A stretch of DNA of 26,956 bases from a virus. The stretch lies in IMG/VR virus record IMGVR_UViG_3300027749_000429, positions 1 through 26,956 of that record; one strand, 5' to 3'. Under the pieces are notes generated by a model that worked only from the letters and a program-made list of their open reading frames with translations, did not search any database and was not told the origin of the DNA. The number at the start of each line of letters is the position of its first letter. Position 1 is the stretch's first letter. The position numbers were made by a program, and so were the translations under genes. Below, piece by piece: positions 1 to 26,806 of this stretch.

Positions 1-1170
1 GAAGAAAAGGAATGGAATATTAATCAAGAAAAAGCTAAACAATTGTCTGAAAAAATTGAAGATTCAACAAAAGATGTAGATAATGAAAAACTAAAAGACG
101 AAACATCAAAAGATCATATATTAAAAATAGCTGATTTATTTGGTAAAGCTTATAGACTTTATGCTACCGGTACAATCCCATCTGGAAGACCAAATGATAG
201 AATTTCAGGTAAAACATATAGAGAATATAAGTATATTGGAACAGGAACACCTAATGTTCCTACTGAAAGTGCTGGTCCTGGATATGGTCCCTGGGCTAAT
301 ATAAAAGTATATAATGAATTTACTGATAAAATTAGTGAAATAATACAAGAAAAGAAATATAGAAAAGTATTTAATGTTGGAACTTTAGCAGGACCAAATG
401 GTAAAGTACCTAACAAAGGTAATGTACTATTAGAGTTTATTAGAAATATGATAGATGAGAATACATTAAAAAGTTATGAAGCTAATAGAACAAAACTTCT
501 TAATAAATATTTTGGATTAAAACCGGATGAATCTATATCTTCACTTGATAATTCTGGTGATGATACTAGTGGTGTAGTAAAGAAAACTGCAGAAAAAGTA
601 ATGTGGCAACAAACAGGTAATTTAGATTTTGATAAAGCAAAAATTGGTGGTTTCATAGCATTAAATGTAGAATATATAGATACTGTAAGTAAATCACCAC
701 ATCATAAATGTTGGATAGGTCAAATATTGAAAAAAGATAAAGATAGAATATTGATTAAATATTTAGTTGATGATGAATTAATACCAGAAACTTATGGTAT
801 GAAAATTACTCCAGAAAATAAGTATGTAAATACTTCTAATCCGTCAAAAGAAGTTTATTATGGTTTAATTAATTTACCACTTAAAGAAGAAGGGAAATTT
901 AAAATGGCTAGATATGGAAGAAGTAAATTAGTGGATTCTTCAGCTCAAAAACCAGATATTTTAGAACCAACGCTTACTAAGAAAAAAGTGGTAGGAAAAA
1001 CTTTTAGAAATTCAGCAACAAGAGCTAAAATAGCAAGATTATCATATCAAGATAAAGATGGCAATGATAAATTGGTTGAAGGAACAATAGCTAATGATCG
1101 TAACAAAATATACAATGATAAACCTATTGGATTGGATAATCTATTTACAAACATGTCAAAAGAATTATAA
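1..1170 (+). CDS. Unrecognised phage protein, 5'-truncated by the window edge
   Basis: The reading frame is open from base 1, so the gene begins upstream. The TTG at 43 has no special context and I do not take it as the start. About 389 residues are visible. The N-terminal 45 residues are Lys/Glu/Asp-rich and probably helical. A soluble globular region follows, with GTGTPNVPTESAGPGYGPW near residues 82-100 (counting from base 1) and a mixed alpha/beta second half. No signal peptide, membrane segment or catalytic motif was recognised. The TAA stop overlaps the ATG of the next gene by one base (TAATG), which implies translational coupling to the coiled-coil protein at 1170. No function can be assigned. 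A virion-associated role is suggested only by the neighbours: the next gene has a capsid-targeting-like N-terminus and the sheath gene follows. Confidence 0.8.
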   Translation, partial: EEKEWNINQEKAKQLSEKIEDSTKDVDNEKLKDETSKDHILKIADLFGKAYRLYATGTIPSGRPNDRISGKTYREYKYIGTGTPNVPTESAGPGYGPWANIKVYNEFTDKISEIIQEKKYRKVFNVGTLAGPNGKVPNKGNVLLEFIRNMIDENTLKSYEANRTKLLNKYFGLKPDESISSLDNSGDDTSGVVKKTAEKVMWQQTGNLDFDKAKIGGFIALNVEYIDTVSKSPHHKCWIGQILKKDKDRILIKYLVDDELIPETYGMKITPENKYVNTSNPSKEVYYGLINLPLKEEGKFKMARYGRSKLVDSSAQKPDILEPTLTKKKVVGKTFRNSATRAKIARLSYQDKDGNDKLVEGTIANDRNKIYNDKPIGLDNLFTNMSKEL

Positions 1171-1802
1171 TGAAATACATAAAAACATACGAAAAATTTG
1201 ATTTAGTTAAACCAGACCAGCCCTTAAGTGTAGATTTAAGGGCTGATATGACTAATTTTAATCAATCCGAATTAAATAAAAAACAATTTGATAAATATAA
1301 AGCTAAATTACAATCAATATACCAAAATTATATTGACGATCAAACACCTAATGAAAATGGTATAGCACAAGATTTATATAACAAATTACTCTCGGCTAAA
1401 TTTATTAAAAAAGGAAATCCTAAATTAAAAGGACAAATAATTTGGAAAAATCCAGATGAAACTGATGAAACTATAGCAAAAGAAAATCCTATGTTTAAAA
1501 TATATGCCGAAGAACTTTCGCAAGAAAGAAAAACAAAAAAAGCGGAAGAAACTTTACAACAAAAACAAAAAGATATGGCTGAAAAAGAACAAGCTATAAA
1601 AAATAATCAAGGAGATGCTTCTGTGGCTAGTAAAGATATAGATAATATAAAAACTGATATATCCACAGAAACAGATAATTTAAGTAAAACTGCCACAGAA
1701 GTTCAAACCTTAAAAAAGGCAGCTAAGAAAGAACTTGATGATAAAAAGAAAGAGTTAGATTTAGGTAAAAGAAGGATTGAAAAACTAAAAGGTTCCAAAT
1801 AA
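1170..1802 (+). CDS. Coiled-coil protein with capsid-targeting-like N-terminus
   Basis: This 210-residue protein begins MKYIKTYEKFDLV, a short basic/aromatic N-terminus that recurs in six other otherwise unrelated small genes of the window (see findings). The N-terminal half is soluble and mixed. Residues about 115-210 are an almost uninterrupted Lys/Glu/Gln-rich heptad-type region, which predicts a long coiled coil. There is no membrane segment or enzyme motif. Its ATG overlaps the TAA of the preceding gene by one base, so the two are translated as a unit. No ribosome binding site is visible. By analogy with T4 internal proteins it could be packaged in the prohead, but that is inference; it could equally be a scaffold-like or chaperone-like protein. 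Confidence 0.8.
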   Translation: MKYIKTYEKFDLVKPDQPLSVDLRADMTNFNQSELNKKQFDKYKAKLQSIYQNYIDDQTPNENGIAQDLYNKLLSAKFIKKGNPKLKGQIIWKNPDETDETIAKENPMFKIYAEELSQERKTKKAEETLQQKQKDMAEKEQAIKNNQGDASVASKDIDNIKTDISTETDNLSKTATEVQTLKKAAKKELDDKKKELDLGKRRIEKLKGSK

Positions 1803-1843
1803 ATCGTGTATTTGAAAACTACTAAAAGTTGGTTTTAAATTAT

Positions 1844-1852
1844 AATATATAA
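1844..1852 (+). promoter_or_regulatory. AATATATAA box upstream of tail sheath gene
   Basis: The 9-mer AATATATAA lies 26 nt before the sheath ATG. The same 9-mer precedes at least six other genes. It resembles the T4 late promoter element TATAAATA in composition, so it may be a late-promoter -10-type element. The role is inferred. Confidence 0.35.
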
Positions 1853-1878
1853 AATAAATATAAAAATAATACAGACAT

Positions 1879-2193
1879 ATGCCATCAGTAATAATCAGTA
1901 ATTATAAAAGACCAGGTATCTTTATAAATGAATATGATAATAGTGTAATAGCGAGTCAAACTTCGCAAGGTATTACAAATCTAGTCATAGGCGTTTCTAA
2001 GACAGGTCCTATAAATACTCCGGTGCTTATACAAACTACACAGGATTTACAAAACATCTTCGGTGGTATTGATAGAACATTAGAAAGAAAAGGTTCTTAT
2101 TTCCAGAGAACAATTGCACAAATGCTTCTATCATCTCCAGTATATGCTATAAACTTATTGGAAACTGATCCAACTTTAGATCAACTTGAATAA
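1879..2193 (+). CDS. Tail sheath protein, N-terminal part (ends at in-frame TAA)
   Basis: These 104 residues are the N-terminal end of a contractile tail sheath protein. They carry the family signature KRPGIFINEYDNS (residues 9-21) and a following strand-rich block ending in an AQMLLSSPVYAINLL segment, typical of the sheath N-terminal domain that contacts tube and neighbouring subunits. The frame stops at TAA 2191-2193, but exactly the same frame stays open from 2194 to the stop at 5838. This is therefore not a complete protein but the first 8% of a 1319-codon gene. The start ATG follows an AATATATAA box and an A-rich leader without Shine-Dalgarno. The stop may be a nonsense mutation, a sequence error or a site of programmed readthrough. 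I cannot tell which from the sequence. Confidence 0.85.
   Translation: MPSVIISNYKRPGIFINEYDNSVIASQTSQGITNLVIGVSKTGPINTPVLIQTTQDLQNIFGGIDRTLERKGSYFQRTIAQMLLSSPVYAINLLETDPTLDQLE
2191..2193 (+). other. In-frame TAA inside the tail sheath gene
   Basis: A single TAA splits an otherwise continuous frame 1 reading frame running from 1879 to 5838. The 76 codons after it (2194-2421, before the next ATG) are open and encode plausible protein (APLSTATNKT...), and the ATG at 2422 has no initiation signal. TAA is the ordinary stop of nearly all other genes here, so code reassignment does not explain it. A single base change from CAA, GAA, AAA, TTA, TCA or TAT/TAC would produce it. Confidence 0.85.
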
Positions 2194-2421
2194 GCTCCTT
2201 TATCAACAGCTACTAATAAAACTAATGATATAGTAAGAACAGGTGCTTATAGTGGCTTCTTCAATACAACTGGTTTCTGGAAATTAGACACAGATTCTTT
2301 CTTAAATTTAGCTTCTGGAAATGTAAATTATCAAAACAGATTATTAAACTTTACTAATACATCGGCTTCTTACATCACAGTATTTGTTTTCAAAACAACT
2401 GCTACTGGATTTGACGTAACT

Positions 2422-5400
2422 ATGACAGCTTGGTATGGTTCAATAACTAATATACCACCTTATGTTTATCCAACAGATTATGTATCCGATTACATGGTAG
2501 ATGTTGTGGTTGTAGCGGGTGATTGGTCAAATTATCAAGCATTATCAGTAGATAAAACTTGGTCAAAATACTTTGACGCAACTGGTTTATTAAAAAATCA
2601 AGTTCAAAATTTCATTAATGATAGAAATGTTACATTATTAAAATACTATCAAGGTTTAAGTTTTATTCCTTATTTCAGAGATTCTAATAATCAAAACATA
2701 TTTATTGAAACAGTAATTAACCAAGATACTCAAATAACTGGCTTATTCTGTGCATTTAACGCTGATTTATTAGATACTGATTTCCCAACTGGTGCTATTG
2801 ACTTAATAGGTAATAACCTTATTAATACAGATAGTTTAGTTGATTCTAACTCTACTAGTATTGATTTCTTATCTTATAATGAAAGTTTAATTTCAACATT
2901 AGAATTTAAAAATACAATTTTAGATGCACCGGGTAATGTAATAGCATTGGATTCTACATTATTATTTAATACAGATATAGTAGATTTTTCGCAAAGATCT
3001 GATAATTATGCAGAAGATACCGTAAGTGGTGTTCTAAGAGCTACTTCGGCTACACACTCTTCAACAGCGGCTAGTGTTGCTTATAATGTTTCTACAACAG
3101 CAAATACTCATAATAGCGAAATGCCATATGCTATAATAGGTGGTAACATAGTTTATGTAACTAGTGGACCAACTGTTTCTATATCTGTTAGCAATACTAA
3201 CTTTGCTTCTAAATCCGCAACAGCAAGTTATTATACAGCAATTAAATTAGATACAAATGGTTCTATAACTAATGTTACTTCAACTGTGGCTTCAGCAAAA
3301 CCTACAGTTGCAGCATCTGATATTATTCTTGGTTATATGTATACAACAGTACAAGGTGGTAACATAGTTGCAAATACTGTTACAGACGTAACAGTTGCTA
3401 CTGCAAGTTATTTAGACTTAGAGGCGAATACAGATTACACGATTACATCTGGTGGAAGTAATAATACATTTACTATTACATTTACTGATACAGCAGTTAA
3501 TCCAGCTACTTCTAACTATGAACAATATAGAAGAATCAAAAGATTTAATTCTTTAAGAACATTATTACAATCAGTTCAAATACAAAAATCAGTAATATTA
3601 CTAGATTTAGATGGATTAGGCGACTACAAAAAGATAAGTATGGCTAACATGGGTATTAGTGTAGTAACTTCTACTTCACAAGATAAATCCATAACAATAC
3701 AAACTAATCTTGGGTTAAGCGAAGCTACATTTGCAGCAAATGTTATAAATGGTTTAGAAACTGCTTTAGTAATATATGCTAACGATAATGAGTTAATCTT
3801 ATCCGATAATAAAATGGTTACAACAACTTCGCCAGCAACATCTAATTTAATTGGCGCAAGTGCGGTTGGTGTTGTGGGACAGTTCTCTACTTTATATCAA
3901 GATTTTTATAATGGTGTTATAAATAGTGGCGACTACTTCTATGCCAATGTTTTACAATATGACGCAGGTCTTGTTTATACAACATATACTGCTTCAAGCG
4001 TAAGCTTTGTACATACAACTAGCGGAACATATTCTGGATTAAACTTTGTAGTAATTGTTACTGACAAAAGCTACTTACCGTTTGATGACGGTTCTGGTGG
4101 AAATAAATTTGGCAACACATTTAATAGTATAGTAGTACCTGATTCAATGCTAAATATGGGTAAATTAACTATAGCATCAGATCCATTTGGACAACACTCA
4201 ATAGGTTATAACTATGCATCAGCATTAGGTTATACACAATCTTATACATATGCTTATTTAGTGGGTGATTCATTAAATACTGAAACAATTTACAATGTAA
4301 CAAGAATTTGGGATGCCGATACTAAGTATTACTTAGCAATGGATATTGATTCTAATAATAACTTAACAGTTAATATAACTGGTGATGATTTATATACTTA
4401 TCAAGGAAATTTAACACAATTAGCTGATTGCTTTAGCGTAAATACTTCTTTCTATGTTAATTCATTCGAATCAGATTATCAAGAAACTGTTGAAATAGTT
4501 GTTCCAACTGGATATACACAAGTACCTAATCAAATTTTAGTAAATGCTGCTAGATATTCAAATATAATAGTTGGTGATTTCTTATTACAAGATAATACTA
4601 CTGCAGAGTTAGAAGTTGGACAACAAGCTAAAAACTTAACAAGAATTCTTTCTAAGAGAGTTTATAGCGGAGATAGTACATTAGCTTTAATAACTTGTGA
4701 TGCGGCAATATACAAATTCCCATTCGGTAATCAAGCATCTACAACTTATCAAACAATGAGATATTCTTCATTAGATAATTATGTATCTACTTATAAGGCT
4801 ATTCCATTAAAAGGATTTAGAATACGTCAAGCGTCTTTACCAGATGGTACTGAAGCAAAACAAAATGAAATACTTAATTTAGTTGCTAAAGGAACTCCTT
4901 TATATAATGCAATTATAAATAAAGATGCATTAGACTTTAGATATTTAATTGATTCTTTCGGACTTGGTTTAACAGAGTTTTCAAAACAACAATTATCTGA
5001 TATTTGTGGTGGTAGATTAAATTGTCTTGGTTTCATAAATATGCCTTCTATGAAGTCATTTAGACAATCAAGTTCACCTAAGTTTACAGATGCAAATGGT
5101 GTATTACAAACTTCTTATATCGCACAAGGTGGTGACTTAGAAAGTAATCCAGCATTCTTATATAGCATGGCAGAAGGAGCGGGTACTACTTGCGTAGGTT
5201 ACTTTGCACCATATCTTACAGTTAATGATAATGGAGCACCACTAAGCGTTCCACCAGCAATGTTTGCTGCATCAACTTATATGAGAAAGTTCAATACTAA
5301 TGTAACTTCAATAGTTCCTTGGACAATTGCAGCTGGTACAACAAATGGTTTAATAACTGGTATAGCTGGTGTTGAAATGGACTTCAATCCAACAGACGTT

Positions 5401-5838
5401 GAAAACTTAAATCAGGCTCAATTTAATCCAATTATTCTTAAGAAGAATAGAGGATGGGTAATTGATACTGAAAATACAGCATTAACTCTTTATAAATCAG
5501 CATTATCTTACTTACACGTTAGAGAGGTATTGATTGAATTAGAAAACGCTTTAAATGATATGTTATTACAATTCCAATGGAAGTTTAATACACAAGATAC
5601 AAGAGCGGAAATTAAGTTAAGAGCAGATGTTATTTGTGCTGGATTTGTTAACAGAAATGGTTTATATAACTACTTTAACAAGTGTGATTCAGAAAATAAC
5701 ACAAATACATTAATAGATAATCAAATAGGCGTATTAGATACATATATCGAACCAATTAAAGGATTAGCTGTTATAGTAAATAACATTACAGTTCTTAAAA
5801 CTGGTGCTATTGCAAGTGGTGGTTTCCAATCTCTATAA
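2422..5838 (+). CDS. Tail sheath protein, main part (continuous frame from 2194)
   Basis: This is the body of the contractile tail sheath protein; coding really continues from 2194. With the N-terminal 104 residues the gene would encode 1319 residues, about twice T4 gp18 (659). The last ~270 residues are the classic conserved sheath C-terminus: GWVIDTENTALTLYKSALSY, then helix REVLIELENALNDMLLQFQW and a terminal strand ending ASGGFQSL, which builds the inner ring contacting the tube. The extra length lies in central Thr/Ser/Ala-rich beta domains (roughly residues 330-900 of the full protein), probably exposed decorations. Codon use favours TTC, AAC and TAC more than neighbouring genes, as expected for an abundant protein. 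A strong terminator follows immediately. The ATG at 2422 is internal and has no leader of its own, so independent initiation there is unlikely. Confidence 0.9.
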   Translation: MTAWYGSITNIPPYVYPTDYVSDYMVDVVVVAGDWSNYQALSVDKTWSKYFDATGLLKNQVQNFINDRNVTLLKYYQGLSFIPYFRDSNNQNIFIETVINQDTQITGLFCAFNADLLDTDFPTGAIDLIGNNLINTDSLVDSNSTSIDFLSYNESLISTLEFKNTILDAPGNVIALDSTLLFNTDIVDFSQRSDNYAEDTVSGVLRATSATHSSTAASVAYNVSTTANTHNSEMPYAIIGGNIVYVTSGPTVSISVSNTNFASKSATASYYTAIKLDTNGSITNVTSTVASAKPTVAASDIILGYMYTTVQGGNIVANTVTDVTVATASYLDLEANTDYTITSGGSNNTFTITFTDTAVNPATSNYEQYRRIKRFNSLRTLLQSVQIQKSVILLDLDGLGDYKKISMANMGISVVTSTSQDKSITIQTNLGLSEATFAANVINGLETALVIYANDNELILSDNKMVTTTSPATSNLIGASAVGVVGQFSTLYQDFYNGVINSGDYFYANVLQYDAGLVYTTYTASSVSFVHTTSGTYSGLNFVVIVTDKSYLPFDDGSGGNKFGNTFNSIVVPDSMLNMGKLTIASDPFGQHSIGYNYASALGYTQSYTYAYLVGDSLNTETIYNVTRIWDADTKYYLAMDIDSNNNLTVNITGDDLYTYQGNLTQLADCFSVNTSFYVNSFESDYQETVEIVVPTGYTQVPNQILVNAARYSNIIVGDFLLQDNTTAELEVGQQAKNLTRILSKRVYSGDSTLALITCDAAIYKFPFGNQASTTYQTMRYSSLDNYVSTYKAIPLKGFRIRQASLPDGTEAKQNEILNLVAKGTPLYNAIINKDALDFRYLIDSFGLGLTEFSKQQLSDICGGRLNCLGFINMPSMKSFRQSSSPKFTDANGVLQTSYIAQGGDLESNPAFLYSMAEGAGTTCVGYFAPYLTVNDNGAPLSVPPAMFAASTYMRKFNTNVTSIVPWTIAAGTTNGLITGIAGVEMDFNPTDVENLNQAQFNPIILKKNRGWVIDTENTALTLYKSALSYLHVREVLIELENALNDMLLQFQWKFNTQDTRAEIKLRADVICAGFVNRNGLYNYFNKCDSENNTNTLIDNQIGVLDTYIEPIKGLAVIVNNITVLKTGAIASGGFQSL

Positions 5839-5852
5839 TAGATTATCAAAAT

Positions 5853-5883
5853 AAAAAATGCTCCCAAATTGGGAGCATTTTTT
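5853..5883 (+). terminator. Rho-independent terminator after tail sheath
   Basis: A perfect 13-bp stem (5853-5865 with 5871-5883) contains ATGCTCCC/GGGAGCAT flanked by A6 and T6, with a 5-nt loop AAATT. It lies 14 nt after the sheath stop and insulates it from the adhesin operon. The A/T tracts make it usable in both directions. Confidence 0.92.
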
Positions 5884-5903
5884 ATTTTGAATACTCATAT
5901 ATT

Positions 5904-5912
5904 AATATATAA
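5904..5912 (+). promoter_or_regulatory. AATATATAA box, 4 nt before the lectin-fibre start
   Basis: The 9-mer AATATATAA is followed by TAAT and the ATG at 5917. It sits just after the terminator, where a promoter for the next operon is expected. The same 4-nt spacing is seen at 8231 and 11545. Confidence 0.4.
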
Positions 5913-5916
5913 TAAT

Positions 5917-7371: not shown

Positions 7372-7374
7372 CAT

Positions 7375-8229: not shown

Positions 8230-8230
8230 A

Positions 8231-8239
8231 AATATATAA
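8231..8239 (+). promoter_or_regulatory. AATATATAA box, 4 nt before the NHL-propeller gene
   Basis: The 9-mer AATATATAA lies between the stop at 8229 and the ATG at 8244 with a 4-nt spacer. It may be a late promoter element giving an additional near-leaderless transcript, or a translation-initiation element. Confidence 0.35.
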
Positions 8240-8243
8240 ACAA

Positions 8244-10778
8244 ATGAGAAATATTTATAATAAATTATATGTATCAGGTTCATCTGGTTCAACAGATGCA
8301 GTAGCCATTAATGCCTCAGTAGAATCAAATCTACTATCTATTGTATCACCCACATCTAGTCAAACTATTTTTAAAATTAGAAATACACAATACGGATTTA
8401 CTATTTCAACATTAGATATAGTTTCAACAATAGCTGGATCAACTGCTGCGACAAGTGGCTCTTCTGGTGATGGTGGTCCTGCTACTAGTGCATTACTTAA
8501 CTACCCAAGTGGTTCCGCATTTGATAGTTATGGTAATCTTTATATAGCAGATATGTCAAATTACAAAGTTAGAAAAATTGATACAAATGGTATAATAACA
8601 ACTTTTGCTGGTAATGGAACATCTGGCTTATCTGGTGATAGTGGTCCAGCAACATCAGCACAACTATTTAAACCATTTGGTGTAGCTGTTGATTCTAATA
8701 ACAATGTATATATAGTTGATGTATTAAATATAGCCGATACTGGCGCAATAAGAAAAGTTAACACAAATGGTATTATAACAACTGTTTTAGGAATTACAAC
8801 ATCAAGTACTGCAGGAACAGCTGGAATCACTGTGGATAACAATAATAATATCTATTTTACTTGTGGTAACATTGTTAAAAAAATTACACAATCTGGAATA
8901 ACAACAATTGTTGCCGGGACAGGAGTGGATGGTAGTTCTGGTGATAATATACCAGCAACATCAGCACCGTTGTATGGCACTTGGGGAATAGATGTAGATA
9001 ATTTGGGTAATATTTATTTTGCTGATTATTATAATGGGCTGATAAGAAAAGTAGATACAAATGGAATTATAACTACTATAGCTGGTGGTGGTGTTTCGCT
9101 TGTAGAGGGAGTTGGTGCAACATCAAGTTATTTAGTTAATCCAATTGCTGTAAAATATAAAGATGGTGCTATTTATGTATCTAATGGTGGATACTATAGC
9201 ATAAGAGTAGTAAGCTCTATAGGTAAAATTAGGACACTAGCGGGTAGTTCTGCATATGGTTACTCAGGTGATGGTGGTGTTCCGCTATCAGCTAAATTCA
9301 GTTATATTGGTGGTCTAAGTTTTGATAATATCGGTAATTTGTATATAAGTGACAGCAGCAATAATGTAATTAGAAAAATTACTTTATCATCTCTTAATAC
9401 TAGAAGAGATAATTCCGCTTATTTAAATTATGAAAAAAATAATAATCTATTTGCTATAGATGGAAATGGAGTTGTCAATTTAAATGGTAGTATAACTTTT
9501 AAAGATATTAACTTTTTAACACAATCTTATAGAAATGCTAATGGGAATATAAATGGGTTTGTATTACAAGATGGATATAAAATAACCAGTTCTCATTTTA
9601 ATGGTACCGAATTTTTAACACCAGGTTCTTTTTTTTGGATGGAACCAGGTTATTCTAAAACTTGGAATGCATATTCAGCATTAGGAGATATTAGTAAAAT
9701 ATCTTTTAGTGCTTCGTTTGCAACAGATTCATTAGTATCATTTATATTATCACCAACTTCTTCTTATAGTGGTTTAACTTACTCGGATTTATTTAATATA
9801 ACATTATTTAATAATAATCAACCTGTTTATTTACCTGTAATAAAAACTTATTCAACATCAGGTAATTTAAATGTATCTATTGATACATATGATACTAATA
9901 TAACAAATTTAAGTGCAATATTATTAGGTAGAAATATAAATTATTCATACACATATTCCACCTCATTTGCTAACACAACACTAGTAACATTTTATGGTTA
10001 TAATGCTACACCAGTGACATATAGTTTACAATTCAGTAACTATTACTTTGGAACACAAAGTTTTACTATGTCACCATACAAAATTGCAAAACTAACAACA
10101 AAAAATGCTAAATTATTAAATACCAAACGTGAAGTATATAATAATAATGGTGCAGCATTATTTTATGGACACTATTATACAACAGTAGGTAATTATGGAA
10201 ATACTACATCTGGTGTTTCATATACTTATTTACAAGATCCGCTTGTTTCTATTGGTGCTACCGCAGGATTTGTTGGAGCAAATCAAGCTTTTGACACTAG
10301 TGCAAATGCTGATGCAAATTTTATATATGTGATAAGTAGTGCAGCTTATGGTAGCAGTGTACCTGCTTATATAACACGCTATCATATGGTAAATGGAACT
10401 AATGTTACACAAAGTGTAATTTGGAGTAATAATTATTTACCAACACAAAGTTTAGTATTAAGTGCTAGCTCTAGTAAATTTATCGGATATGGGTTTAGTG
10501 ATGTACCAAAAAGTGCATTTTATATAGCCAATACAAGCTCAATATCTGCAACATTCTCAGCAAAACAATATTATACAAAAGGAAACTTTATATCTATAAC
10601 ACAAGACTATAATCCAATTTCATCAGTATTTTCTTCAACACCAACAGGTGCACAAATATACTCAACAAGTAGTACACCCGGAACTAATCTTTATCCAGGA
10701 ACACAATCTTCTGTAATATTTTATTTAGGACGTGGTGAAGCATTTACCTTAACTCAACCGTTACCAGTTGATTATTAA
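8244..10778 (+). CDS. Tail fibre/adhesin with six-blade NHL-repeat beta-propeller
   Basis: The protein has 844 residues. Residues about 60-390 hold six NHL-type repeats, each with a pattern like AGNGTSGLSGDSGPATSAQL, then GNLYIADMSNYKVRKID and NGIITT. Blades begin near STIAGS, TFAGNG, TVLGIT, TIVAGT, TIAGGG and TLAGSS. Blades 3 and 5 have degenerate versions of the SGDGGPATSA segment. This is the bacterial/teneurin-like propeller subtype, which binds proteins or glycans. The propeller is followed by the WMEPGYSKTW module shared with the previous gene and a Ser/Thr-rich beta C-terminal half, probably a fibre shaft or tip. It is the third gene of the adhesin operon. The last four bases overlap the convergent gene on the other strand. 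A virion receptor-binding role is inferred from context; the propeller call itself is strong. Confidence 0.85.
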   Translation: MRNIYNKLYVSGSSGSTDAVAINASVESNLLSIVSPTSSQTIFKIRNTQYGFTISTLDIVSTIAGSTAATSGSSGDGGPATSALLNYPSGSAFDSYGNLYIADMSNYKVRKIDTNGIITTFAGNGTSGLSGDSGPATSAQLFKPFGVAVDSNNNVYIVDVLNIADTGAIRKVNTNGIITTVLGITTSSTAGTAGITVDNNNNIYFTCGNIVKKITQSGITTIVAGTGVDGSSGDNIPATSAPLYGTWGIDVDNLGNIYFADYYNGLIRKVDTNGIITTIAGGGVSLVEGVGATSSYLVNPIAVKYKDGAIYVSNGGYYSIRVVSSIGKIRTLAGSSAYGYSGDGGVPLSAKFSYIGGLSFDNIGNLYISDSSNNVIRKITLSSLNTRRDNSAYLNYEKNNNLFAIDGNGVVNLNGSITFKDINFLTQSYRNANGNINGFVLQDGYKITSSHFNGTEFLTPGSFFWMEPGYSKTWNAYSALGDISKISFSASFATDSLVSFILSPTSSYSGLTYSDLFNITLFNNNQPVYLPVIKTYSTSGNLNVSIDTYDTNITNLSAILLGRNINYSYTYSTSFANTTLVTFYGYNATPVTYSLQFSNYYFGTQSFTMSPYKIAKLTTKNAKLLNTKREVYNNNGAALFYGHYYTTVGNYGNTTSGVSYTYLQDPLVSIGATAGFVGANQAFDTSANADANFIYVISSAAYGSSVPAYITRYHMVNGTNVTQSVIWSNNYLPTQSLVLSASSSKFIGYGFSDVPKSAFYIANTSSISATFSAKQYYTKGNFISITQDYNPISSVFSSTPTGAQIYSTSSTPGTNLYPGTQSSVIFYLGRGEAFTLTQPLPVDY

Positions 10779-11035
10779 TTAGACAATATAATTTCTAAAT
10801 TTTCTTTATTAAAGCCACCTTCAAGTGGCTTTTTTCCTTTTTTTAAATAATCTGCGTAAAGCTCATTATAATCATCATAGGTATACATCTCTCCAGTTAT
10901 ATCAGATGCAATAACTTCTGTATCATTTGTTGTAATTGTATTTGAGAGTTTTTGACTACCTATACCAGGTCCTAGTGAACCTATAAGTTCGGTTCCCGAA
11001 ATAGATTCTAAAAATTGTTTGTATTTTTTTATCAT
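10775..11035 (-). CDS. Small acidic protein with capsid-targeting-like N-terminus
   Basis: This 86-residue protein begins MIKKYKQFLESISGTE, close in character to the T4 capsid targeting sequence MKTYQEFIAE. Gly- and Thr-rich residues follow, and then a helical C-terminal half (DDYNELYADYLKKGKKPLE). No catalytic motif is visible. Its ATG overlaps the TGA of the upstream gene (11032-11466) as ATGA, so the pair is translationally coupled. Its 3' end overlaps the 3' end of the convergent adhesin gene by 4 bp and contains that operon's terminator hairpin within codons. A packaged internal protein is a reasonable hypothesis; nothing in the body identifies an activity. Confidence 0.75.
   Translation of the reverse strand: MIKKYKQFLESISGTELIGSLGPGIGSQKLSNTITTNDTEVIASDITGEMYTYDDYNELYADYLKKGKKPLEGGFNKENLEIILSN
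10811..10835 (+). terminator. Terminator of the adhesin operon, embedded in a convergent gene
   Basis: The 8-bp GC-rich stem AAAGCCAC/GTGGCTTT (10811-10818 with 10825-10832) has a 6-nt loop and runs into a T tract on the + strand. It lies 32 nt beyond the adhesin operon's last stop, inside the C-terminal codons of the minus-strand gene 10775-11035. The other orientation lacks a T tract, so it acts mainly on + strand transcripts. Confidence 0.8.
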
Positions 11036-11466
11036 TTATTTACTTCTATTTCTTCATAATATTCATCTTGGCTAGTTAATGAATATTCATCTTTTTTTAT
11101 ATTATATGTTATGTTATATAACATATTATCACCCATTGTATAATCACCATGTCTTAATACTAATTTATACTCTGGTTTACTAACTTTTAAAATTAAATCA
11201 CCTATTTTACCATTTTTATCAGATAAATCACACCACACTTTTTTCTTCTTATTTAAATAATCATCTATTTTATCACATGCTAAATGCTTTGATAAATAAG
11301 CATAATCATTTAAATCACCCTCCTGTGTTTGATTATATAAGTTCAAAAAGTCATCCTCTCTAATGGTCAAACTTTCTCCTTTTGAAATCTTATCCAAAAT
11401 TCTATTAAGTTCAATCTCTTTAAGAGATTCCTTTAAGATATAATGTTTATACCATTTTTTAATCAT
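11032..11466 (-). CDS. Unrecognised small protein, possible capsid-targeting-like N-terminus
   Basis: This 144-residue soluble protein begins MIKKWYKHYILKESLKE, a looser match to the basic/aromatic N-terminal motif of the window. It contains two [L/I]-x-E sequences (residues 11-13 and 15-17) like those cut by the T4 prohead protease. Residues 18-90 are helical and charged, and the C-terminal part is strand-rich (KYEL-type stretch and YNITYNIKKDEY). It ends in TGA overlapping the ATG of 10775-11035. An AATATATAA box lies 20 nt upstream of its ATG on the minus strand. No family was recognised. Confidence 0.7.
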   Translation of the reverse strand: MIKKWYKHYILKESLKEIELNRILDKISKGESLTIREDDFLNLYNQTQEGDLNDYAYLSKHLACDKIDDYLNKKKKVWCDLSDKNGKIGDLILKVSKPEYKLVLRHGDYTMGDNMLYNITYNIKKDEYSLTSQDEYYEEIEVNK

Positions 11467-11553: not shown

Positions 11554-11557
11554 AGAT

Positions 11558-15591: not shown

Positions 15592-15592
15592 T

Positions 15593-16048
15593 TTAGTTTA
15601 ACGTTCTATTTGTTTTAGTATTTCCTACTAAACCTCCTTTAGAGGTTGTTTTTTCTTTAACTCTAAAGTTAAGATAAGAAAATTGTGGCGTGTTTCCGAA
15701 ATCTCTATTATACTGTTCTAAATTAGTGAAAGAAGATAAAAATAATTTCTCAATTTCCTGCAATTTATTCTTATCACCTTTAAGTTGGATTTCAATTATA
15801 GTCTGTTTAGTCTTTGGATCATCCCAATACCAAATAAATGCTGAATTATCACCATATTCTTTATCACCTATTGTTTTACCAAAATCTTGACCTGGAACTG
15901 AAGCGAGTAAAGTTGCTCTAACACCATTTTTTTTAAACCATAGATATAAATCTTTAGCTATTTTTTTAATCTCTAAATTATCTTCGTTTATCATCTCAAC
16001 CATTTCGTCAAAATTTTCAAACAACTTAACATATTTTAATTTTTTCAT
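15593..16048 (-). CDS. Small protein with capsid-targeting-like N-terminus
   Basis: This 151-residue protein begins MKKLKYVKLFENFDEMVE. It carries the KYVKLFENF form of the shared N-terminal motif, shifted four residues in, with LFE matching the [L/I]-x-E prohead-protease pattern. Residues ~25-50 form a charged helix, then strands (NSAFIWYWDD, TIIEIQLKGD), a helix, and a basic C-terminal tail. No active-site motif was recognised. The promoter region upstream lies in or beside the 57-bp palindrome (TATATATATAA about 30 nt before the ATG). It is transcribed toward the bidirectional terminator. Proposed as a packaged internal protein by N-terminus only. Confidence 0.75.
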   Translation of the reverse strand: MKKLKYVKLFENFDEMVEMINEDNLEIKKIAKDLYLWFKKNGVRATLLASVPGQDFGKTIGDKEYGDNSAFIWYWDDPKTKQTIIEIQLKGDKNKLQEIEKLFLSSFTNLEQYNRDFGNTPQFSYLNFRVKEKTTSKGGLVGNTKTNRTLN

Positions 16049-16062
16049 ATTTAATATAATTT

Positions 16063-16272
16063 CTATTTCTTATATATATATAAAAAGAAAAAATAATTTT
16101 TTCTTTTTATATATATATAAGAATTAGGTCTTTGTTCAAATATACCATGTGTTTTACAGATTATTTTAACCTTTATACCATCATTTACATATTCCGACAA
16201 TGAATAGTCAAATAAATCTTCATGTTTTAAGTTGGATTTTTCTATGAATTCTTTATTTGTTAGCCTTCTCAT
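16063..16272 (-). pseudogene. Truncated copy of the zinc-repeat endonuclease gene
   Basis: The first ~53 residues (MRRLTNKEFIEKS... to QRPNSYI) match the N-terminus of the intact endonuclease at 25802, with paired motifs such as IICKTHGIFEQ versus IICKIHGEFEI. Then the frame enters the palindrome at 16067-16123, reads low-complexity Lys/Tyr/Phe, and stops. The second zinc pair (C-x2-C), the second zinc repeat and the whole nuclease domain are missing, so it cannot be an active endonuclease. It overlaps the upstream small zinc gene by exactly 20 nt, the same overlap as in the intact cassette, showing that both genes arrived together. Confidence 0.85.
16067..16123. repeat. Perfect 57-bp AT-rich palindrome
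   Basis: Arms 16067-16094 and 16096-16123 are exact reverse complements (28 bp each) around a single unpaired base at 16095. Each arm has a (TA)n run and A5GA6. It marks the truncation point of the endonuclease remnant and supplies the TATATATATAA upstream of the gene starting at 16048. It could be a rearrangement scar, a DNA cruciform or an assembly fold-back. Confidence 0.9.
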
Positions 16273-16399
16273 TTTTTAATTTATTTTTTAATCTTTGTCT
16301 ATATTTCTTTTCATTCCTTTGACAATTTCCGGAACAATATTTTTTATTCAACTTTCCAGTTATTTCTTTATCACAATTTCTGTAATTACATTTTCTCAT
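16253..16399 (-). CDS. Small zinc-binding protein (Cx4C...Cx3C), partner of endonuclease cassette
   Basis: This 48-residue basic protein has Cys at 4, 9, 22 and 26 (MRKCNYRNCDKEI ... KKYCSGNCQRN), a C-x4-C / C-x3-C arrangement that predicts a small zinc ribbon or treble clef, followed by a Lys/Arg-rich helix. It is a clear paralogue of the 46-residue protein at 25681 (shared YRNC, KxYC, xxC spacing and basic tail). Its 3' end overlaps the start of the endonuclease remnant by 20 nt, exactly as in the intact cassette. Since the endonuclease partner is destroyed here, this copy is likely a relic still able to be translated. DNA binding is inferred from charge and the zinc motif. Confidence 0.75.
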   Translation of the reverse strand: MRKCNYRNCDKEITGKLNKKYCSGNCQRNEKKYRQRLKNKLKNEKANK

Positions 16400-16511
16400 A
16401 TACTATATATTATATTTTTGTCCTCTATTTGTCCTCTATTTGAAAAAATTATTATTTTTATTCTAAACAAATGCTCAATTATATTATAAAAGTTAAAAGA
16501 AAATAAATTAT
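16400..16511. promoter_or_regulatory. Divergent intergenic region with 11-bp tandem repeat
   Basis: This 112-bp gap lies between the small zinc gene (-) and the gene at 16512 (+). It contains the 11-bp unit TTTGTCCTCTA twice in tandem (16417-16427, 16428-16438) plus a further TTTG, in an otherwise A/T-only stretch. Both promoters must lie here. The repeat could be an operator or simple slippage. Confidence 0.4.
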
Positions 16512-17264: not shown

Positions 17265-17300
17265 TTAAAAAAAGCCTCTCAAATGAGAGGCTTTTTTTAA
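17265..17300. terminator. Bidirectional terminator
   Basis: A 16-bp perfect stem (17265-17280 with 17285-17300), core AAAGCCTCTC/GAGAGGCTTT, has loop AAAT and flanking A7/T7 tracts. It lies between the + gene ending at 17264 and the minus gene ending at 17302, and serves both. Confidence 0.93.
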
Positions 17301-17301
17301 T

Positions 17302-23121: not shown

Positions 23122-23170
23122 ATCATATATATTAAAGTATATAACATATGTTAAATTAAATATATAAATA
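23122..23170. promoter_or_regulatory. Divergent promoter with 12-bp palindrome TAACATATGTTA
   Basis: This 49-bp A/T gap lies between the giant fibre gene (-) and the ParB-like gene (+). A perfect palindrome TAACATATGTTA sits at 23142-23153 in the centre, an arrangement suited to a dimeric regulator acting on both genes. An AATATATAA box occurs at 23159-23167, 3 nt before the + strand ATG. Confidence 0.45.
23159..23167 (+). promoter_or_regulatory. AATATATAA box, 3 nt before the ParB-like gene
   Basis: The 9-mer AATATATAA is followed by ATA and the ATG at 23171, within the divergent promoter region that also has the TAACATATGTTA palindrome. Confidence 0.35.
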
Positions 23171-23551
23171 ATGAAATACCTAAAATTATTTGAAAATTAT
23201 TACAAGGAAACATCTTGGACTACCAAAATTGATGGCAAAAAAGAAACTATTACTATACAACAAATTCAGGATTATCTTAAAAAGCAGCCTATTATAGAAA
23301 TACCTGTTGAAGAAATTACGGATATGTGCGTCCACAAAGATAAAACTGACATAGAAACTAAACAAAGATCAGAAAAATCGGATTTATCATATCCAATAAT
23401 TATATCAAAAGATTTAGATGGTAAGTATAACATGATTTTAGATGGACACCATAGATTATTAAAAGCTATAAATACAAATCAAGATACAATTAAAGCAAAA
23501 GTTTTGGATTTAAGAGAAGCACCAAAAAAATATCAAAAAATGTTTAATTGA
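23171..23551 (+). CDS. ParB/sulfiredoxin-fold protein with capsid-targeting-like N-terminus
   Basis: This 126-residue protein begins MKYLKLFENYYKET, one of the best copies of the shared N-terminal motif, with LFE as a possible prohead-protease site. The body has a ParB/Srx-like N-terminal-domain pattern: a strand with PIIISKDLDG, then YNMILDGHHRLLKAI with the signature DGHHR at residues 91-95, then a strand KAKVLDLRE. In this fold the GxHR segment binds nucleotide or DNA (CTP in ParB, ATP in sulfiredoxin, nuclease activity in some relatives). The remainder of a typical ParB (helix-turn-helix) is absent. It ends with TGA, unlike most neighbours, and its 3' end is only 2 bp from the convergent nuclease gene with no clear terminator. 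A packaged effector acting on DNA or nucleotides is a hypothesis. Confidence 0.75.
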   Translation: MKYLKLFENYYKETSWTTKIDGKKETITIQQIQDYLKKQPIIEIPVEEITDMCVHKDKTDIETKQRSEKSDLSYPIIISKDLDGKYNMILDGHHRLLKAINTNQDTIKAKVLDLREAPKKYQKMFN

Positions 23552-23553
23552 GA

Positions 23554-24654: not shown

Positions 24655-24675
24655 AATACTTATATTATCAATAGA

Positions 24676-24888
24676 TTAAATAGTTTCTAAATCTTCTTCG
24701 CTGTTTTGTAAACATTGTTCTTCGCTATGCGTTGTTATATCAACAACTTTGCCACACTCTTTACAAGTACCCATTCTATTTGCACCGTCATCATGAATGT
24801 CATCAAACCGATAAGTTTGTGATTTACCTTTGAATTCTGCTGGCTGCTTACCCGTAAAAAATGTTTTAAAACTTTCTAAAAATTTCAT
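24676..24888 (-). CDS. Small zinc-knuckle protein with capsid-targeting-like N-terminus
   Basis: I place the start at the ATG at 24888, giving 70 residues beginning MKFLESFKTFFTGKQ. An upstream in-frame ATG (24924) would read through the preceding gene's terminator and is rejected. The N-terminus is a variant of the shared basic/aromatic motif. Residues ~40-57 hold CKECGKVVDITTHSEEQC (C-x2-C, then His and Cys), a likely single zinc site. The C-terminus is acidic. TATATATA lies 2-9 nt before the ATG, directly after the terminator of the tail tube gene, so its mRNA may be nearly leaderless. Function unknown. Confidence 0.7.
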   Translation of the reverse strand: MKFLESFKTFFTGKQPAEFKGKSQTYRFDDIHDDGANRMGTCKECGKVVDITTHSEEQCLQNSEEDLETI

Positions 24889-24901
24889 AAAGTATATATA
24901 A

Positions 24902-24935
24902 AATAAAAAAAGATGGTTTCCCATCTTTTTTTATT
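24902..24935 (-). terminator. Terminator of the tail tube gene
   Basis: A 15-bp stem (24902-24916 with 24921-24935) has core AGATGG/CCATCT and long A/T flanks with a 4-nt loop TTTC. It begins at the tail tube stop codon and ends about 13 nt before the next minus-strand ATG. Confidence 0.85.
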
Positions 24936-25548
24936 AATAACCATGTATATAAGGGTCTGTAATTACGACACCATTATCAATGTAATCATCAATCCAGTAA
25001 TCCGCTATGAATTTAGCTGTTGCATTTCCAATATCATTAGAATCAAATTTCAATTCAGTTGAATTTATACCCATAAGCTGAACATTTTGAAAAGTTACTC
25101 TTCTTAAAACTAATCCTTTTTTATCATGTTGATTTACTATTACAGTTCCAATAGTATCTGCTTTGTAGTGTAAAGCACCAGTTTGAGAGTTCCAAACTAA
25201 ATCATACCAAGCTTTTAAAGTAGCCCAAGTCTCCATAGAACCAGAATTATTTACGTTTACATTAAAAGTAATATCAAACGCAGTATCTGTTTTTTCAGGA
25301 GTCTTTAAAAACATTCTAGTTGAATATTTAAACTTTTGAGTAGCTGTTGGAATATCTGGTGTTAAATCTAAAGTTACATTAGTAGCTTGCTCCAATAACA
25401 TCAGAGAATCACGTTTCTGACCTTGTAAAATTGTTGGTAAGATAAACGATATCTCAAACAGGTTTAAAAATACTGGTTCCTGTGGTGTTGTACCTGGAGC
25501 ACCTGGTGCACCGGTCATCTCTAATTGATTATAGTGAGGTAAGGGCAT
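24934..25548 (-). CDS. Tail tube protein (T4 gp19-like)
   Basis: This 204-residue protein is predicted to form the inner tail tube that the sheath contracts around. It begins with a Pro/Gly-rich arm (MTGAPGAPGTTPQEP). The core has the gp19/VgrG-tube beta-barrel pattern: NLFEISFILP, FDITFNVNVNNSG, a central helix WATLKAWYDLVW, then TIGTVIVNQHDKKGLVLRRVTFQNVQL, where a [I/V]xQxDxxGxxxRRxTFxN-type stretch is typical of the family. The C-terminus is ATAKFIADYWIDDYI. The length is right for gp19 (163-210 residues). It has its own promoter region, a long A-rich leader (about 50 nt) and its own terminator, fitting high monocistronic expression. It is remote from and opposite to the sheath gene, unlike the adjacent sheath-tube order of T4. 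Confidence 0.8.
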   Translation of the reverse strand: MPLPHYNQLEMTGAPGAPGTTPQEPVFLNLFEISFILPTILQGQKRDSLMLLEQATNVTLDLTPDIPTATQKFKYSTRMFLKTPEKTDTAFDITFNVNVNNSGSMETWATLKAWYDLVWNSQTGALHYKADTIGTVIVNQHDKKGLVLRRVTFQNVQLMGINSTELKFDSNDIGNATAKFIADYWIDDYIDNGVVITDPYIHGY

Positions 25549-25622
25549 TTTATTGTTATTATTTTTTGTGGTTTCTCAACCTATAAAGTATATATAAAAA
25601 ATAATTTACCACCTATTATCAA

Positions 25623-25656
25623 CTTTTTATAATTTATTTATATAAATTATAAAAAG
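25623..25656. repeat. 15-bp inverted repeat (AT hairpin) upstream of endonuclease cassette
   Basis: CTTTTTATAATTTAT pairs perfectly with ATAAATTATAAAAAG around a 4-nt loop. There is no T tract after it on the + strand. It may be a weak terminator or transcript leader structure, or the boundary of the inserted cassette. Confidence 0.6.
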
Positions 25657-25670
25657 GGCTATACAAAATT

Positions 25671-25679
25671 AATATATAA
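25671..25679 (+). promoter_or_regulatory. AATATATAA box, 1 nt before the small zinc gene
   Basis: The 9-mer AATATATAA is followed by T and the ATG at 25681, the first gene of the endonuclease cassette. This is the tightest spacing of the boxes listed. Confidence 0.35.
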
Positions 25680-25680
25680 T

Positions 25681-25821
25681 ATGAGAATATGCAAATATAG
25701 AAACTGTAATAAGATCTTAAAAGGCAGAAAAGATAAACAATACTGCGATAGGTCTTGCAAATGTATGGAAAATACATATAGAAAAAGAGATATAAAAAAA
25801 TATGAAAAGATTAACAAATGA
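25681..25821 (+). CDS. Small zinc-binding protein (Cx4C...Cx3C), first gene of endonuclease cassette
   Basis: This 46-residue basic protein has Cys at 4, 9, 22 and 26 (MRICKYRNCNKIL ... KQYCDRSCKC), predicting a small zinc ribbon or treble clef, plus a Lys/Arg/Tyr-rich C-terminal helix. It is the intact-locus paralogue of the minus-strand protein at 16253-16399. Its last 20 nt overlap the endonuclease start in another frame (25802-25821), so the two are co-translated. The TGA stop is one of few here. It may assist DNA binding or regulate the endonuclease, or bind zinc for it; none of this is proven by sequence. It is too short to be picked up by usual length cut-offs. Confidence 0.75.
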   Translation: MRICKYRNCNKILKGRKDKQYCDRSCKCMENTYRKRDIKKYEKINK

Positions 25822-26497
25822 AGATTTTATTATAAAGTGCAAAGAAATACATGGTGATAAATTTGATTATTTTAAAACTAACTATATAAATACCAGGACA
25901 AAAATAATTATAATATGCAAAATACATGGTGAATTTGAAATAACACCAGATAATCATATTAATCAAAAACAAGGGTGTGTCAAATGTGCAAGAGATAATC
26001 ATAAATTAACAAAACTTTCTAATGAGAGGTTAGAAAGTTTTAAAAAAATACATAATAATAAATATTCATATTTAGATTTATCAGTAAATAATGGAATAAT
26101 TAATATAATTTGCCCAGAACATGGTAAATTTGAGCAAATTATTTATAATCACGAAAAAGGGCATGGGTGCCCAGATTGCAACTCATCTAAAGGAGAAGAA
26201 AAAATTAAATCAATTTTAGAAAGTAAAAATATCAAGTTTAAAAGAAATCATGAATTTGAAGATTGTAAAAGGAAAAGAAAATTAAGATTTGATTTTCATT
26301 TACCAGAACTCAATACATGTATTGAGTATGATGGTGAGCATCATTATATAGAAAATCAATATTTTGGCGAAGGTAATTTAGAATACATGAAATTAAATGA
26401 TGATATAAAAAATAAATATTGTTATAATAATGGTATAAAATTAATTAGAATACCCTACTGGGAATTTGAAAATATTGATGATTTAATTAATATATAA
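25802..26497 (+). CDS. Free-standing homing-type endonuclease: two zinc repeats plus Vsr-like nuclease
   Basis: The protein has 231 residues. Two tandem zinc modules each carry C-x2-H ... C-x2-C: C39/H42/C59/C62 and C104/H107/C123/C126 (IICKIHGEF...GCVKC and IICPEHGKF...GCPDC). They are followed by a Vsr/PD-(D/E)XK-type nuclease domain (about 130-231): FDFHLPEL (D164), CIEYDGEHH (E175, D177, H180/H181), then KNKYCYNNGIKLIRIPYWE. Such proteins are common in phages as free-standing homing endonucleases that cut a cognate site and spread by repair. It overlaps the small zinc gene by 20 nt. A 5'-fragment of a second copy remains at 16063-16272. The gene lies between the tail tube and a small packaged-type gene, a typical intergenic insertion. 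Cleavage activity and target are unknown. Confidence 0.85.
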   Translation: MKRLTNEDFIIKCKEIHGDKFDYFKTNYINTRTKIIIICKIHGEFEITPDNHINQKQGCVKCARDNHKLTKLSNERLESFKKIHNNKYSYLDLSVNNGIINIICPEHGKFEQIIYNHEKGHGCPDCNSSKGEEKIKSILESKNIKFKRNHEFEDCKRKRKLRFDFHLPELNTCIEYDGEHHYIENQYFGEGNLEYMKLNDDIKNKYCYNNGIKLIRIPYWEFENIDDLINI

Positions 26498-26500
26498 TAA

Positions 26501-26806
26501 ATGAAGTATATTAAATTATTTGAAGATTTTAATTCACCATATAATGCCGCATTATATGATATAATCAAAAAAACTATTATTAAGTTACGTTACGACACCG
26601 ATAGAGATTTTAAAGAAGTTGCTGATTTATTATCATCAAATGGATTGTCTAAACCAATGGCAGCACAAGTATCTAAATTATTAATTAGAAATAAAATAAA
26701 AGAACCAGAAAAAATAGATAATTATATTGATAGTATAATCCAATTAATGGAATATACAAATGATAAACCTATACTTACAAACTTGTGGGGTCAAGAAGGA
26801 ACATAA
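26501..26806 (+). CDS. Small helical protein with capsid-targeting-like N-terminus
   Basis: This 101-residue protein begins MKYIKLFEDFNSPYN, the cleanest copy of the motif shared by seven genes of the window, with LFE matching the T4-type prohead protease pattern. The body is helical: residues ~15-60 (DIIKKTIIKLRYDTDRDFKE, VADLLSSNGLSKPMAAQVSKLL) and a second helix ~68-88. A short VADLLSSNGLSKPMAAQ stretch has the feel of a helix-turn-helix, but this is not strong. It starts 3 nt after the endonuclease stop behind TATATAATAA and ends at a strong terminator. Its function is unknown; capsid packaging is proposed from the N-terminus. Confidence 0.8.
   Translation: MKYIKLFEDFNSPYNAALYDIIKKTIIKLRYDTDRDFKEVADLLSSNGLSKPMAAQVSKLLIRNKIKEPEKIDNYIDSIIQLMEYTNDKPILTNLWGQEGT

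Follow-up and report, generated by a model that had tools for sequence, protein, structure and literature searches.

Why should seven small proteins, encoded on both strands of one stretch of viral DNA, begin with variants of the same short peptide and continue into unrelated bodies? The stretch in question (hereafter the window) is the IMG/VR virus record IMGVR_UViG_3300027749_000429, a fragment of 26,956 bases, and its initial annotation had proposed that the peptide is a modular N-terminal signal by which, as in phage T4, a variety of proteins is loaded into the capsid. Several independent comparative lines support this proposal: the peptides, which we call leaders, are exchanged on one and the same body, including for a T4-like one; homologs lacking a leader exist; related genomes encode a T4-type head module; their scaffold contains copies resembling the T4 capsid targeting sequence (CTS); and leader genes have an upstream element in common with virion genes. 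On these sequence comparisons capsid targeting appears well supported, and the leaders are probably propeptides of the T4 CTS kind, whose cargo would be loaded into the prohead and then clipped.

The window represents 27 kb of a huge-phage genome whose relatives include the uncultured phages LR756502 (642 kb; W01) and LR745206 (635 kb; W02), both with genomes above 600 kb. Its tail sheath protein (2422-5838) is 50% and 48% identical, respectively, to theirs; the identity is 40% for LR756504 (636 kb; W03), 42% for LR756501 (735 kb; W04) and 37% for LR756500 (462 kb; W05). W01 and W02 are described as each other's nearest relatives (PMC9723777), and a survey from 2020 predicted Bacteroidetes hosts for five genomes larger than 634 kb (PMC7162821). 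W01-W04 were compared whole and W05 without its last 2,018 bases, with the whole genomes of Lak-B2 (MK250021, W06), MaF61 (W07) and T4 as controls. All gene numbers are approximate, because genes were called with a simple custom codon-usage caller; 22 window genes enter the counts.

The exchange of leaders was observed in the family of the 126-aa ParB/sulfiredoxin-like protein encoded at 23171-23551 (+ strand), which carries the leader MKYLKLFENYY (23171..23203). Homologs of this body begin MKYLKLFE, MKYLKTFE, MYKFQTFKEWLNE or MKTYYQFINE, the longer N-termini by homolog being MKYLKLFENYYKETSW (window and L234), MKYLKTFEYYNHYQETSW (L235 and L236), MKTYYQFINEVNNYEETSW (L237) and MYKFQTFKEWLNEGYYEETSW (L238). 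MKTYYQFINE is identical to the T4 capsid-targeting peptide MKTYQEFIAE at residues 1, 2, 3, 4, 7, 8 and 10; L237 has Tyr at position 4 and Phe at position 7, and also matches the T4 processing residues 8 and 10. By our own reading, the ATG of L237 comes almost directly after the upstream stop codon, and a longer in-frame ATG also exists. Homologs in Erwinia Machinavirus and Pseudomonas phages are annotated from the start of the body (MNMGMYREG, MGTYREG and MAYQEYG in the three records examined of 14 matched). In the AlphaFold2 model of the 23171 protein, residues 1-11 have pLDDT values below 50 and the body is confidently modelled; with this model Foldseek returned sulfiredoxin and ParB as its best, albeit weak, matches (lowest E 2.7e-3; none ≤0.001). 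The ParB-like body recognized in the initial annotation is supported by a PHROG match, the structure model and this weak Foldseek similarity. Judging from the sequences and the model, the leader of this family is an add-on to the body and is predicted to be unfolded.

Leaders of this kind are very common in the closest relatives: in W01 and W02, each with some 930 called genes, about 170-200 start with them (e.g. MKHLKxYNES, MKHLKTYKIFES, MKYLKLFENF, MIKKYNQFINE), mostly on unrelated bodies. A strict pattern matched 74/941 gene starts in W01, 51/921 in W02, 8/894 in W03 and 0/652 in W05, compared with 2/3320, 2/3117, 3/2740 and 0/1843 internal Met residues. A gapped N-terminal profile trained on W01 and W02, with the cut-off chosen so that 0.5% of internal-Met 16-mers pass (score 2.4), identified 169/941, 148/921, 68/894 and 45/652 gene starts in the same four genomes (internal Met residues: 15/3320, 18/3117, 16/2740 and 13/1843), and 1/256 in T4, 4/183 in MaF61 and 18/588 in Lak-B2. 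When a pattern for a T4-like leader class (class D) was added, the numbers of positive starts were 192, 171, 79, 102 (of 973) and 50 for W01-W05, with 31/3320, 33/3117, 22/2740, 33/3893 and 25/1843 internal Met residues; the controls gave 20/588 starts and 20/2825 internal positions in Lak-B2, 4/183 and 5/1146 in MaF61, and 4/256 and 3/938 in T4. The T4 positives were IPII, IPIII, 61.1 and one that is apparently due to chance; IPI was not flagged. Given a background of 1.6-3.4% at the control starts, W01 (20%) and W02 (19%) lie far above it, and W04 (10%), W03 (9%) and W05 (8%) also exceed it. When each genome was given a profile of its own, the yield was 197, 173, 77, 160 and 85 leaders (W01-W05), several P1 assignments in W05 appearing out of register; since such training overfits small sets (16/256 in T4, 7/183 in MaF61, 38/588 in Lak-B2), the fixed W01/W02 profile was used for comparisons.

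A back-translated MKYIK[LF]FE query detected at least 118 IMG/VR stretches, compared with 8 for the scrambled MKFIYLKE. Among the matches listed, 80 loci represent 77 distinct proteins, with the motif at the first Met of the open reading frame (ORF) in 71, and the 74 proteins of at least 50 aa form 59 body clusters; a 20-aa leader query against a phage collection matched only LR756500. Codons differ among the window copies, as had been pointed out before, and 85 MKYIK[LF]FE matches use 47 different 24-mers, which indicates that the peptide rather than the DNA is conserved.

The bodies behind the leaders are diverse. BLAST clustering, which misses remote homology, separated the 192 leader proteins of W01 into 175 clusters (163 singletons) and the 171 of W02 into 161; a short N-terminal peptide is thus common to unrelated bodies, as in T4-type capsid targeting. 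One diverged family (DILLDLxDDGF) has 58 members in W01 and W02, 48 of them with a leader, and many of its W01 members appear by eye to lie in tandem at 11-45 kb. Among 424 reciprocal W01/W02 pairs, both partners carried a leader in 52 cases (10.1 expected), one partner only in 12 and 15, and neither in 345. With the per-genome profiles, 53 pairs had leaders on both sides; the named classes differed in 6 of these, and one side was unclassed in 11. Such a change of class is exemplified by MKYLRTYEGFDHL (starting from a Met inside the W01 gene as called) and MIIKKYIKFINEEFDHL, whose bodies are 84% identical. Leader proteins extended at least 5 residues beyond leaderless homologs in 50% of 128 pairs, compared with 15% of 1361 control pairs; these pairs are not independent, and some of the apparently leaderless partners look like missed leaders. 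An example is the RNA ligase, which begins MKLFKYIEFINENSKNEYSIPSYEE in W02 and MIEKFHIPSYEE in W03.

All seven reading frames and N-terminal peptides of the initial annotation were recovered in the window, at the coordinates and on the strands given here. Their sharing of one leader was borne out far above chance for five and, through an ortholog, for the gene starting at 11035, while the case of 11466 is doubtful; six window proteins convincingly carry a leader. Genes 1170, 16048, 23171, 24888 and 26501 passed the profile cut-off and 11035 and 11466 fell below it, the chance expectation among the window genes being ~0.1 at the 0.5% level and ~0.1-0.7 at the start-site background of the control phages. 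The leader of 23171 scored 18.8. The 210-aa protein 1170-1802 (+) starts with MKYIKTYEKF (1170..1199; score 13.4), retained as M[KR]Y[IL]KTYE[KN]FDL in L242-L244, and the 101-aa protein 26501-26806 (+) with MKYIKLFEDF (26501..26530; score 16.1), its homolog L240 (86% identity) beginning MYIKLFEDF. The leader of the 151-aa protein 15593-16048 (- strand) is MKKLKYVKLFENF (16010..16048; score 18.8); no relative of this protein was found in the related-locus search of viral contigs. MKFLESFKTFF (24856..24888, -; score 6.5) heads a 70-aa CxxC/HxxxC protein (24676-24888), for which the zinc knuckle originally described corresponds to a sub-threshold Pfam match only. The Met chosen for this protein lies inside a longer ATG-started ORF (24924), and a homolog, L239 (69% identity), starts at the matching Met (MKFLESFTSFF). 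L239 also runs on into a longer C-terminal part than that of 24676-24888, with LNE-S at the join.

The two remaining proteins are encoded side by side on the - strand. The 86-aa protein 10775-11035 begins with MIKKYKQFLESI (11000..11035), a T4-like class D leader; its W02 ortholog 220566 (55% identity over 69 residues) starts MIKKFYQFINEISGTEL, and by this comparison 11035 is rescued as a representative of a second, T4-like leader class. The 144-aa protein 11032-11466, with the doubtful leader MIKKWYKHYILKESL (11422..11466), aligns with W01/W02 proteins beginning ..FKKFIKHYLLGES and FKKLIKYYILGES; its N-terminus is conserved along with the body, and it therefore provides no clear evidence of a leader.

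Genetic analysis of T4 assigned targeting mainly to Tyr at CTS position 4 and Phe at position 7, and processing to Ile at position 8 and Glu at position 10 (PMC9026906). A hydrophobic residue at position 4 (mostly Leu or Ile, not Tyr) together with an aromatic residue at position 7 was found in 71%, 70%, 77%, 23% and 54% of the leader proteins of W01-W05 and in 3-7% of leaderless proteins, a comparison which is partly circular, as the profiles used these columns. In W04 the aromatic pair is shifted, and 74% of the leaders contain aromatic-x-x-aromatic. Class D leaders fit [LI]xE, and the other classes end with FE, NE or KIFE. The residue following the leader Glu (P1') is mostly S, E, N or A in W01, W02 and W04 (W01: S 41%, E 14%, N 10%); in W05 it is E (33%) or D (30%), which may reflect misregister. 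Our own reading of the alignments suggests matching sites in the head proteins: it places a predicted cut site of the capsid protein between [IML]xE and N in 5/5 relatives, and the end of the protease domain between [LIV]NE and [SA] in 6/6 proteases (ITE and S in T4). The idea that LFE itself is the cut site holds for some copies at most: among the matches listed, position 10 is aromatic in 51/74 MKYIK[LF]FE proteins, and a further [ILVMFY]xE occurs at positions 11-13 in 14/74.

The initial annotation had suggested looking for a gp21-like prohead protease and a scaffold; the relatives encode such a protease and a scaffold-like half in a single ORF (W01 225272-227371; W02 198546-200669; W03 185342-187636; W04 73913-76336). 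Portal (PF07230) and capsid (PF07068) proteins were detected above the curated Pfam cut-off in 5/5 relatives, and the gp21-type protease (PF03420) in 6/7 records, above the cut-off only in W05 and Lak-B2. GE[LF][ND]HP and SSR are common to the six aligned proteases and T4 gp21 (7/7). In the scaffold-like half, [YFW]xx[YFW][ILVM]xE occurs 11 times in each of W01-W03 and 14 times in W04, mostly at a spacing of 14 residues; four of five relatives thus have 11-14 YSEYIAEN-like copies. The protein following the protease-scaffold ORF has 2 further copies in W01 and 7 in W04.

Leader genes and virion genes also have in common an upstream ATATATA, which is a candidate late-promoter element as judged from its distribution. 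In W01-W04 (gap of at least 25 nt), it precedes 81/92, 66/73, 45/50 and 58/62 leader genes compared with 131/340, 132/342, 125/450 and 145/330 leaderless ones, in most cases some 4-22 nt ahead of the ATG; the W05 values are 12/24 and 51/214. Base-shuffling of the W01 leader upstream regions gave a mean of 8.2/92 with ATATATA, compared with 80 observed within 60 nt. In W01 it lies before the transcription unit of 9/9 chosen leaderless virion genes and 2/2 adjoining leader genes, and of 4/11 chosen replication/metabolism genes, several gene identities in these lists having been assigned by eye. Five of the seven genes of the initial annotation have the element within 100 nt: 23171 (23160..23166, +), 24888 (24893..24899, -), 26501 (26490..26496, +, inside the 3' end of the upstream gene), 16048 (22 nt upstream) and the doubtful 11466 (21 nt upstream). 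The two without it abut or overlap the upstream gene; 1170 begins at the end of its upstream gene and has no ATATATA within 100 nt. Among the other window genes it occurs in 9/15, including those for the tube and the sheath (gene 1879-5838, a virion gene; element at 1845..1851, +). ATATATA differs from the T4-type TATAAATA, which was not enriched upstream of leader genes. The host-type TAnnTTTG was rejected as a leader-gene element, being rarer before leader genes (7/92, 2/73, 3/50 and 6/62 in W01-W04) than before leaderless ones (69/340, 81/342, 110/450 and 54/330).

A Pfam scan of 182 of the 197 W01 leader proteins (10 crossing piece borders and 5 under 60 aa were left out) returned 37 family rows, corresponding by our own grouping to some 18-20 proteins. 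Two of these, PrkA and a DEAD-box helicase, score poorly as leader proteins (2.5 and 3.6 bits) and were probably called in error, and an RNase_T exonuclease is recognized solely by the class-D pattern. A random sample of 91 of the 503 leaderless proteins gave 49 rows, 25 of which already represent ~21 proteins. As to whether the motif is equally common on cytosolic enzymes, this partial check was divided: DNA polymerase, gyrase and topoisomerase were found only in the leaderless sample, which also includes RNase H, but some enzymes do carry leaders. The enzyme domain of these begins no earlier than residue 34 (24-42 for the methyltransferase models). Leader genes are more lineage-specific than other W01 genes (72/197 and 367/744, respectively, have a reciprocal match in W02) and form tandem clusters (94 adjacent pairs, 39.7 expected), features that fit accessory cargo.

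Several other readings of the leader proteins were rejected. A signal peptide unmasked by leader cleavage was considered, but at the threshold used a hydrophobic or lipobox-like stretch follows the leader in only 2/194 W01 leader proteins, which overall are poorer in such stretches (8/194 compared with 59/706). By eye, W01 580926, 395896, 56658 and 544849 have a signal-peptide- or lipobox-like stretch directly after the leader, which is not a general feature. The N-terminal extension of S21, suggested by PMC7162821 and PMC9723584, is absent as a leader in the S21 proteins of W01, W02 and W03. W01 25633 and 492945, which by eye resembled ADP-ribosyltransferases, matched only a PHROG of unknown function; 492945 had no sequence match in the PDB, and the ADP-ribosyltransferase family did not appear in the W01 Pfam scans.

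Taken together, we infer late expression, core binding, cleavage, packaging and injection of the leader proteins. They would be made late, together with the head proteins, and their short basic/aromatic N-terminus (hydrophobic 4 and aromatic 7, or aromatic-x-x-aromatic) would bind the assembling protein core, the partner probably being the scaffold half of the protease-scaffold fusion, so that the prohead encloses the cargo. Cleavage after Glu by the gp21-type protease ([hydrophobic]-x-E, often between NE and S or between FE and S/N) would then follow, and the freed cargo would stay in the head and probably accompany the DNA into the host, its passage from the prohead to a role as injected effector being the more conjectural part. 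A bolder version, to which we give somewhat less than an even chance, is that in huge phages of this group up to ~1/5 of the genes specify virion cargo: 150-200 proteins per genome would bear a clip-off label, the delivered arsenal would exceed that of T4 more than 10-fold, and the protease-fused scaffold half with its 11-14 CTS-like copies would act as a docking array where the labels zip in and are cut.

A number of observations weigh against the capsid-targeting interpretation. The head module is known from the relatives only, neither portal, capsid protein nor protease being encoded in the window fragment, and the scaffold half has 2 matches in W05 and none in Lak-B2. A profile of the scaffold copies speaks in favour by ranking IPII and IPIII as the top two T4 N-termini (14.8 bits each; scores above 12 were reached at 2/204 T4 starts and by 0/612 internal stretches), but the source copies had been picked with a T4-shaped pattern. 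Its match to the leaders is clear in W04 (scores above 8 in 15/801 starts and 5/2403 internal stretches) and weak or absent elsewhere (W05, 7/530 and 4/1590; W02, 7/776 and 6/2328; W01, 5/802 and 7/2406; W03, 5/750 and 11/2250), the commonest W01/W02 leaders matching it weakly. Several window leaders lack [LI]xE at the T4 position, and cut-like sites are not depleted in the bodies of leader proteins. Distant orthologs seldom keep the leader: it is present on both partners in 2 of 156 W01/W03 pairs (0.7 expected; one only in 18), 3 of 162 W02/W03 pairs (one only in 18), 0 of 75 W01/W05 pairs (one only in 3) and 0 of 76 W03/W05 pairs (one only in 1), and in 20% of the 128 length-compared pairs (controls 15%) it is the leaderless partner that is longer. 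Leaders also occur on enzymes (methyltransferase, SET, Nudix, T4-type RNA ligase 1, poly(A)/CCA-type polymerase). Finally, the leader bodies of W01-W04 are more acidic than the remaining proteins (for W01-W05 their median net charge, per 100 residues, is -3.2, -4.8, -1.1, -1.9 and +0.6, compared with -1.5, -2.2, -0.4, -1.7 and -0.8), in contrast to the internal proteins of T4, which are basic; we therefore speak of CTS-like leaders, not of IP-family proteins.

Proteins targeted to the prohead might also serve to build the head, as parts of the core or of the assembly machinery, instead of being effectors for delivery. The same cleavage logic applies to T4 core proteins (PMC9026906), the majority of leader proteins are small and of unknown kind, and one leader gene (W01 222007) adjoins the portal gene. 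We nevertheless regard this alternative as unlikely, given the lineage specificity of the leader set and the cargo-like character of the enzymes listed above; the T4 internal proteins themselves are injected anti-restriction proteins (PMC12373910). It is more improbable still that the destination is a different site made by the phage (a nucleus-like compartment, the membrane or a replication factory), even though membranes or shells could be bound by a basic/aromatic N-terminus and nucleic-acid enzymes such as the RNA ligase and the poly(A)/CCA-type polymerase are among the carriers of the leader: a T4-CTS-like leader occurs on the same 23171 body, Glu-ended leaders resemble the capsid-protein and protease-end sites, leader genes have the upstream element of virion genes, and DNA polymerase, gyrase and topoisomerase were met only in the leaderless sample of 91, the DEAD-box helicase scoring low. 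That there is no signal at all, the similar N-termini arising from family expansion or from start-codon or AT-rich N-terminal bias, is hardly credible and already largely excluded by the many body clusters, the scrambled-query result, the 47 DNA versions of MKYIK[LF]FE and the change of leader kind on one body, despite the tandem clustering, the 48/58 leaders in one paralogous family, the lysine-rich gene starts common in W01, W02, W03 and W05, and the positives in all three control phages.

Two further features of the window are worth mentioning. The tail sheath frame 1879-5838 contains a single in-frame stop at 2191-2193; a near-identical contig (L017/L241) is intact across this stretch, and a sequence error or a rare defect is therefore likely in the window sheath. 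The protein encoded at 25802-26497 has relatives in many phages, some annotated as HNH endonuclease. Together with the small peptides 25681-25821 and 16253-16399 and a short similar ORF (16063-16272), it occupies two places beside leader genes and, judged by eye, the set is likely to be a homing element.

If leaders target proteins to the capsid, about 170-200 mostly 'hypothetical' genes per huge phage would become one class predicted to travel inside the particle. This bears on the contents of giant virions and on the way phages defeat host defences at entry: T4 Ip1-3 share only the leader, and each blocks a GmrSD enzyme (PMC12373910). The peptides may also be regarded as natural leaders for loading protein into capsids. 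Neither the leader peptides nor the leader system were found reported in the open-licence literature on capsid targeting, huge phages and the prohead protease, mostly judged without full text.

Among known systems, the SPN3US/phiKZ ejection proteins are similar in that a head protease cuts after x-x-E and the mass of internal proteins is large (PMC5694885, PMC7411985); they differ in that the SPN3US propeptides described are mostly long (four exceed 100 residues) with the motif AxE (PMC5694885), and fewer bodies share it. In Lak-B2, five proteins (MK250021 41475, 203010, 233647, 237447 and 532082) have an N-terminal KKxLYESIMKSVSK..VKKxxNE ending with [IL]NE, possibly the Lak counterpart of the leader, although this stretch is longer (about 27 residues), of another sequence and present on few proteins. 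The closest likeness is to the T4 CTS of IPI-III, cut by gp21: a short N-terminal peptide on unrelated bodies, a tendency to hydrophobic or aromatic residues at positions 4 and 7 and to a terminal glutamate, related genomes that encode gp20/gp21/gp23-type proteins, and a homolog of a window protein carrying MKTYYQFINE. The differences lie in number (leader genes amount to about 170-200 in the closest relatives, whereas T4 has 3 and a count of at least 10 is reported for T-even phages; PMC12373910), in the several interchangeable leader classes with mostly Leu or Ile at residue 4, in the acidic bodies of W01-W04, and in the joining of protease and scaffold into a single ORF that holds CTS-like copies in tandem. 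The leaders of these huge phages thus appear to be a variant of the T4 CTS, at a scale unknown from T4.

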